Shown here: in pieces, positions 1,842-2,649 of the stretch | How positions within the stretch are numbered: the first letter of the stretch is position 1 | Layout of the letters: each line of letters begins with the position of its first letter | DNA from: Thermoplasmata archaeon | Lineage (GTDB): Archaea > Thermoplasmatota > Thermoplasmata > Lutacidiplasmatales > UBA184 | DNA: 40,741 nucleotides | NCBI GenBank assembly: GCA_021817245.1 | Contig: JAKAVQ010000018.1 | Location: 1 to 40,741, forward strand | Reading direction: 5' to 3' | The notes under the pieces: model-generated | Seen by the model: only the letters and a program-made list of their open reading frames with translations | Database searches by the model: none | What the model was told of the DNA's origin: nothing | Position numbers and translations under genes: made by a program

Positions 1842-2633
1842 ATGACCGGCGCTCCCCGTCCGCTCGCGTCGTCCCGGCCGGAGGGCCGGGCGACCCCGGG
1901 ACCGTCGCTCGTCCCGTGCCTTCTCCTCAGGGGCGGGCAGGTACTCCTGCCCGGCGAAGAGGGACCCACGGTAGCCCGAACGGCCACCGGCACTCTGTTC
2001 GACCCGTTCGACGTGGTCGACCGCCTGGCGGAATCCTCCCCGCTCCTCTACGTGGTCGACCTCGACGGGATCGAGCGCGGAGACCCCCAGCTCGACTACC
2101 TCCAGGAGATCTCCCGCGACGTTTCGATTTGGGTCGACGCCGGCGTCCGGTCGGCGGAGCAGGCGATCGACGTGCTCGTCACCGGAGCCCGGCGCGTCGT
2201 CCTATCGAGCGCCCATCTGAACGGGCCCCGGGAGCTCCGACGGACCTGGCGCCTCTCGACCGAGGTCGTCTTCGAACTCGAGCTCGTCGGCGCGAAGCTC
2301 GCCCCCGCGCACGAAGGTTGGGGAACGGAGGACCCCGTCGCGCTCGCAGCGACCGTCCGCGACGTGGGCGTGGACCACCTGGTCGTTTCCCCCCGCGGCA
2401 GCGACCCGGACTGGCCGACCGTTCGATCGATCGCCGCCGCCGGCCCCACTTGGGTCGACGGTACGTTCTCCCCCGGCGACGCCCGCCGCCTGACCGAGGT
2501 CGGCGCCTCGGGGGGGATTTACCATCTGAACGACCTCCTCGCCCGCTGGGAGGAGAAGACGCCTACTCTTGACGATCCGCCCCGTGCGACGCGCGATGAT
2601 GAGAACCAGAACCAGCTGACGCATGATGAATGA
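1842..2633 (+). CDS. HisA/HisF-like TIM-barrel protein of unknown function
   Basis: The 263-aa protein resembles phosphoribosyl-isomerase barrels: VVDLDGIERGDPQLDYLQ, then WVDAGVRS in the place of the GGGIRS phosphate loop, then ARRVVLSSA. The strand-1 motif is PCLLLRGGQV (residues about 25-34), where HisF has PCLDV and HisA has PAIDL, so the catalytic Asp is missing. A true histidine or tryptophan isomerase is therefore unlikely. It best fits the archaeal family of HisA-related proteins without assigned function. The last 13 codons and the stop lie inside a C/D-box sRNA, so the C-terminal tail (from about RDDENQ) is shaped by RNA constraints. The start is the first ATG after a TATA-like stretch. 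Confidence 0.75.
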   Translation: MTGAPRPLASSRPEGRATPGPSLVPCLLLRGGQVLLPGEEGPTVARTATGTLFDPFDVVDRLAESSPLLYVVDLDGIERGDPQLDYLQEISRDVSIWVDAGVRSAEQAIDVLVTGARRVVLSSAHLNGPRELRRTWRLSTEVVFELELVGAKLAPAHEGWGTEDPVALAATVRDVGVDHLVVSPRGSDPDWPTVRSIAAAGPTWVDGTFSPGDARRLTEVGASGGIYHLNDLLARWEEKTPTLDDPPRATRDDENQNQLTHDE

Positions 2634-2649
2634 TGGGCGAGCTGAGCGC
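2591..2649 (+). ncRNA. C/D-box guide sRNA overlapping a CDS 3' end
   Basis: All four boxes are present in order with canonical spacing: C box ATGATGA (2596-2602), 13-nt guide, D' box CTGA (2616-2619), 3-nt gap, C' box ATGATGA (2623-2629), 12-nt guide (2630-2641), D box CTGA (2642-2645). GCGC on each side (2591-2594 and 2646-2649) closes the terminal stem. The element fits archaeal box C/D RNAs that bind L7Ae, Nop5 and fibrillarin. By the N+5 rule the D guide would direct methylation of the fifth target base in CUCGCCCAUCAU and the D' guide that in CUGGUUCUGGUUC. Targets were not identified. The RNA covers the end of the HisA-like gene, including its stop. Confidence 0.82.

Follow-up and report, generated by a model that had tools for sequence, protein, structure and literature searches.

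The window, by which we mean the whole stretch of 40,741 nt that was analyzed (contig JAKAVQ010000018.1 of the Thermoplasmata archaeon assembly GCA_021817245.1), carries near its start a HisA-like gene on the plus strand, and the end of this gene runs into a sequence of about 59 nt (2591-2649, plus strand) with the anatomy of a canonical box C/D sRNA, its boxes arranged in the order C, D', C', D. The open reading frame of the host gene spans 1539-2633, and its start was taken near 1842. The encoded protein matches PF00977 with an E-value of 5.7e-13, but its score against the HisA equivalog (42 bits) falls far below the cut-off of 229. Two other features lie close by on the minus strand: an archaeal RNase P RNA gene near the contig end (16-321; full model, 187 bits), which is the only Rfam match at gathering level in the window, and, upstream of it on the same strand, the gene of a phosphoesterase-family protein (412-1809; PF04185, E 1.2e-55). 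The host gene and the parts of the sRNA are the following:

1842-2633, plus strand: HisA-like gene, host of the sRNA (PF00977; the ATG at 1842 is the chosen start)
2591-2594, plus strand: 5' arm of the terminal stem, GCGC (sequence, alignment, stem test)
2595, plus strand: unpaired G between the 5' stem arm and box C (sequence)
2596-2602, plus strand: box C, ATGATGA (AUGAUGA), invariant in 31/31 aligned sequences
2603-2615, plus strand: D' guide, 13 nt, GAACCAGAACCAG, with the conserved core AGAACC(A/G)G
2616-2619, plus strand: box D', CTGA (CUGA), invariant in 31/31
2623-2629, plus strand: box C', ATGATGA (AUGAUGA), with one-base variation in a few relatives
2630-2641, plus strand: D guide, 12 nt, ATGATGGGCGAG / AUGAUGGGCGAG, complementary to the 23S A-loop sequence UUCGCCCAUUA
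2631-2633, plus strand: TGA, the stop of the HisA-like frame, which falls within the D guide
2642-2645, plus strand: box D, CTGA (CUGA), invariant in 31/31
2646-2649, plus strand: 3' arm of the terminal stem, GCGC (sequence, alignment, stem test)

The D' and C' boxes are separated by a spacer of 3 nt. Terminal C and D boxes, internal C' and D' boxes, two guides, and a terminal stem are thus all present, as expected of a box C/D sRNA, and the box order, the guides of 13 and 12 nt, and the GCGC stem described in an earlier, sequence-only reading of this DNA are all borne out by the letters at 2591-2649. In the HisA-like frame the same stretch reads CGC GAT GAT GAG AAC CAG AAC CAG CTG ACG CAT GAT GAA TGA, which agrees with the claim of that reading that the sRNA spans the gene's final 13 codons together with its stop.

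The strict C-D'-C'-D pattern has a single occurrence in the window, and it did not arise in any of 180 shuffled versions (three Markov orders, 60 shuffles for each). When the whole assembly was searched with the half pattern RTGATGA-N9-15-CTGA we obtained 10 matches, compared with one for the backwards control; four of the 10 belong to two copies of the sRNA, and the other six have, as judged by eye, no C'/D partner. No Rfam family matched the sRNA site at gathering level. In a relaxed search the best matches were the archaeal C/D families snoPyro_CD, sR2, sR3, and sR1, with E-values from 1e-5 to 7e-7, all of them below gathering. The top rows of this search, snoPyro_CD (RF00095) and sR2 (RF01139), have the C/D architecture in common with the sRNA, but the guides differ and the scores stay below the gathering thresholds (32.9 bits against 45 for snoPyro_CD and 32.1 against 42 for sR2), so that by Rfam's own rule the sRNA is a member of neither family.

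The locus was then compared across 61 genomes, 37 of them from the genus, counting the window's own, and 24 from outside it. The HisA-like protein was matched in 52 of them. Within the genus, 31 of 35 loci carry the sRNA downstream of the HisA-like gene and in the same orientation; 29 genomes, counting the window's own, contribute these loci. The four left out are L018 and L020, which lie at contig ends, L026, where there is no sRNA at the end of the gene and one copy lies about 3 kb downstream, and L027 (also L144, genome G023), where a degenerate copy lies behind the HisA-like gene on the opposite strand. This degenerate copy has an apparent hairpin in place of the D' and C' boxes and keeps both guide cores. 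No sRNA accompanies two weak second HisA-family matches (L036 and L037, in G023 and G027), and none of the 10 loci examined among 21 HisA-family loci from outside the family had a C/D pattern alongside. The boxes are conserved in the relatives that keep the HisA-like gene, a point on which the sequence-only reading had let its claim depend. In the alignment of 31 sequences the guide cores are near-invariant, with AGAACC and ATGGGCG invariant. In every one of the 30 distinct sequences standard pairs occupy the four inner positions of the stem, and three of these positions show four double, compensatory changes each. Moreover, the covariation score of the nine-pair stem was 0.316, against a mean of 0.121 for shuffled alignments, none of 500 shuffles reaching it, and sliding the stem gave at most 0.117. 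The outer five positions, however, fail to pair in 12 to 18 of the 30 sequences and are mostly not conserved, and two of five whole-stem measures, the cruder ones, were reached by 21 and 56 of the 500 shuffles. Constraint is also visible at the codon level: a comparison of the window with L191, whose protein is 92% identical, shows 60 altered codons among the 250 upstream of the sRNA (38 synonymous and 22 amino-acid changes) and none among the 14 that lie within it.

At G000:C7:337000-340000 (L031) the window's assembly has another HisA-like gene (69% identical), which is likewise accompanied by a copy of the sRNA. Fibrillarin is encoded in the window's genome, with two matches above the cut-off; given these two matches and the additional HisA-like gene, the bin of 2.31 Mb may be a mix of two related species.

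A covariance model built from the genus sRNAs, the E-values of which are rough, gave a strong match in 30 of the 37 genus genomes, a weak one only in 2, and none in 5. It could be argued from the shortness of the motifs, the overlapped reading frame, and the Rfam scores below gathering that no RNA exists here and that C/D-like motifs merely ran together by chance in coding sequence. We rejected this reading, whose probability we regard as close to nil, because the shuffles, the conservation in the alignment, the stem covariation, and the strong matches across the genus contradict it.

Neither 16S nor 23S rRNA was matched in the window's assembly, which confined the tests of the guide targets to relatives. 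Genomes G000-G050 were searched for 23S, and the matches in G030 and G036 were set aside as bacterial-looking by eye. In G001 and G019, the only two genus members in which the A-loop stretch was seen, positions 1-11 of the D guide pair with the A-loop sequence UUCGCCCAUUA, two of the pairs being G-U, and the A-loop is the best D-guide site within the full 23S of both. The sequence-only reading had given full-length target strings to be sought in rRNA; these are absent from the rRNAs searched, but the D target is present once the two G-U pairs are admitted. In box C/D guidance the methylated nucleotide is the one opposite guide position 5 (the N+5 rule). On alignment with E. coli 23S the D-guide pairing begins at 2554, which places C2558 opposite guide position 5; the D guide is predicted to direct 2'-O-methylation at this nucleotide of 23S (E. 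coli numbering). Eight genomes with both the sRNA and a 23S locus were scanned, flanking DNA being taken in. The A-loop ranked first in G001, G040, G037, and G046, second in G019, where the first site lies outside rRNA (27 at locus position 762 against 25 at the A-loop), and third in G047; it was not among the best three sites in G049 and G041, the partial locus of G041 being without the A-loop stretch. In G046 the D guide and its target change together at position 8, and G047 and G049 have an altered D guide and an unaltered target, with a C-A mismatch at that same guide position.

The D' target is ambiguous, and we hold U810 and U2510 to be uncertain, if leading, candidates. The first forms seven pairs in both G001 and G019 and tolerates A or G at guide position 2; the second forms nine pairs, two of them G-U, in G001 and has a mismatch in G019. 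Other 23S sites in G001 also reach seven pairs with this guide. Targets in tRNA were rejected (29 own tRNAs, 30 loci), the longest run being 6 pairs for the D' guide and 9, three of them G-U, for the D guide. Targets in 16S were likewise rejected, the best 16S score in G019 being 20 against 25 at the 23S A-loop; from G018 a 16S alone was available.

The A-loop is a familiar place for such guides. Methylation hotspots have been described at helices 35/35a and 90-93, and, in the part of that paper available to us, A-loop guides of other archaea are assigned to U2552 (five species) and C2556 (two species), so that the hotspot is the same but C2558 is not among the nucleotides named there (Dennis et al., 2015; PMC4644070). 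The matching passages of a review found on Thermoplasmata and box sRNA contain no description of such an sRNA. That the window's sRNA is a C/D guide, as proposed by the sequence-only reading, is strongly supported: its boxes and the cores of its guides hardly vary, changes in its stem are compensatory, a target exists in 23S, and fibrillarin is encoded in the genome. On comparative sequence evidence we conclude that 2591-2649 is a genuine guide RNA in an already known arrangement.

The D guide extends far beyond the genus. At E-values up to 0.1 the covariance model matched 52 of the 61 genomes, among them 20 of the 24 beyond the genus, and at E-values up to 0.001 it matched 91 of 145 genomes sampled from the phylum (Thermoplasmatota), 57 of them outside the class. 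We examined 40 further phylum matches, three from the window's family and 37 from outside it. The D guide pattern was present in all 20 class-level loci and in 31 of the 37 further loci outside the family, counts that were preselected by a model that itself contains the D guide; of the six loci without the pattern, four are off by one or two bases, and L250 and L253 are other sRNAs by eye. A separate pattern consisting of the D guide and box D was found in 108 of the 145 genomes, against 21 for the backwards control, and some of these matches may not be sRNAs. The D' guide, for its part, differs between families, and so do the neighbors. In nine of the 20 class loci the sRNA adjoins a divergent gene with a Tsr3-type motif, one such protein being a PF04034 match, and in two it lies behind a gene for RNA 3'-terminal phosphate cyclase (identity checked in one). 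The case for homology over convergence depends on the neighborhood that those nine loci share and on upstream features that lie outside the model. With a similar D guide found across the phylum beside differing neighbors, the guide looks old and conserved, and it is the D' guide and the genomic site that differ between lineages. By comparison, the available part of a review of archaeal C/D sRNAs holds that their guides evolve at an accelerated rate and that no rRNA position is common to all seven species compared (Breuer et al., 2021; PMC7994747).

The upstream region differs between the genus and its relatives. Averaged over the 20 class loci, AT content has a maximum of 0.82, which lies 31-36 nt before box C; over 55 loci outside the family, those 20 included, the maximum is 0.80 and lies at 31-35 nt. 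The 31 genus loci show no local peak: their AT content is 0.33 at 31-36 nt, stays at 0.28-0.33 from 54 to 19 nt upstream, and reaches 0.38-0.46 at 61-84 nt. Consistent with this, 28 of the 31 genus loci have no 8-mer in the upstream region with more than 5 A/T, compared with 6 to 8 in all 20 class loci. Twenty-nine tRNAs of the same genome as the window served as a control: upstream of them the AT content rises to 0.51 at 29-34 nt, with 0.39 and 0.37 in the bins on either side and 0.20-0.30 elsewhere. The lack of a TATA-like AT peak in the genus suggests that the sRNA rides on the HisA-like transcript, and it is probably transcribed there by read-through from the host gene and then trimmed. 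A different reading would give the sRNA a promoter of its own, unrecognized within the HisA-like gene, and make its position there accidental. The TATA-like peak of homologs elsewhere, at the expected distance, speaks for it, as do a copy about 3 kb downstream in G024 and the degenerate copy of G023, of which the HisA-like mRNA cannot be the source since it lies on the opposite strand. Nevertheless, we consider an independent promoter rather unlikely, given that the 31 genus loci lack the AT-rich element that the genome's own tRNAs show and that 28 of them lack the AT-rich 8-mers seen throughout the class loci.

In the window and 14 other same-strand genus loci (15 of 31) the stop codon of the HisA-like gene falls inside the sRNA, and in the other 16 it lies 24-153 nt upstream of box C. 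A further 13 same-strand loci, from 23 loci in named assemblies, divide in the same way, with the stop inside in six and upstream in seven. That one DNA stretch serves both protein and RNA, as the sequence-only reading proposed, therefore holds for the window's genome but not as a conserved feature; we rejected dual coding as a conserved device, and the overlap reads as incidental. The same reading went on to link the two products, supposing that processing of the sRNA would destroy the end of the mRNA. In its strongest form this would be a regulatory switch, in which the HisA-like mRNA loses its stop and is destroyed once the sRNA is excised, each transcript yielding either protein or sRNA, with the two coupled by selection. 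Such an effect is possible wherever the two overlap, as they do in nearly half of the same-strand loci, and both loci of the sister genus g24 have, behind the HisA-like gene, a further gene with its stop in box C, one of these genes being DUF2240. But where the stop lies upstream, trimming leaves the HisA-like frame intact, and 3' overlaps gave neutral or slightly negative reporter effects according to the accessible text of the review (Breuer et al., 2021). As the overlap is not conserved, a switch between mRNA and sRNA is left without support, and we regard it as highly improbable, more so than an independent promoter.

C/D sRNAs that carry the stop codon of the upstream gene are a described class, to which 25% of the genes belonged in one survey, and a TATA-like motif preceded only 20% of C/D sRNA genes (Tripp et al., 2017, as cited in the available part of Breuer et al., 2021). 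The general statement of the sequence-only reading, that archaeal C/D RNAs sometimes overlap genes, is in line with this (PMC7994747). As far as can be judged from sequence, with the tRNAs as control, the window's sRNA belongs to this 3'-overlapping class, for it has the stop inside and no independent promoter. The box anatomy, the stop inside the sRNA, and the lack of a recognizable promoter are common to both, but here the guide can be traced through a phylum and the overlap can be watched appearing and disappearing; the model species that the accessible portion of the review names include no member of the window's phylum.

Taken together, we think it very probable that the window's sRNA is a C/D guide for C2558 and for an uncertain D' site, promoterless in the genus and trimmed from the HisA-like mRNA, with an old D guide and with a stop-codon overlap that is a by-product. 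The HisA-like mRNA would be transcribed with the sRNA as its 3' end, without a recognizable sRNA promoter; C/D proteins would bind the box motifs within this transcript, and the sRNA would be trimmed out and direct fibrillarin to 2'-O-methylate 23S at C2558 through the D guide and at a second, uncertain site through the D' guide. The overlap with the stop codon would be a by-product of close packing. This account draws on RNA-level conservation, guide-target complementarity in relatives, and the absent TATA-like peak, from which we infer read-through, trimming, and methylation. It is also possible, though on balance we lean slightly against it, that one A-loop guide sRNA goes back to the phylum's ancestor and has kept its D guide through swaps of its D' guide, and that it lost its promoter in the window's lineage, where it would now need HisA-like transcription.

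If this were true, a modification at the ribosomal A site would be tied to the expression of a HisA-like gene, and the change of a guide RNA from transcription by its own promoter to a place in an mRNA tail could be traced in this lineage. Most worth following are the presence of the guide across the phylum and the apparent loss of its promoter. A D' guide, neighbors, and promoter that change around one guide permit moves between own promoters and mRNA tails to be tested; the specific A-loop methylation is a measurable prediction.

Finally, a second C/D sRNA, whose D guide contains CCCTATGAG, was observed in several families (L132, L133, L135, L142, and L253). At two of these loci, L132 and L133, an upstream open reading frame ends inside this second sRNA.
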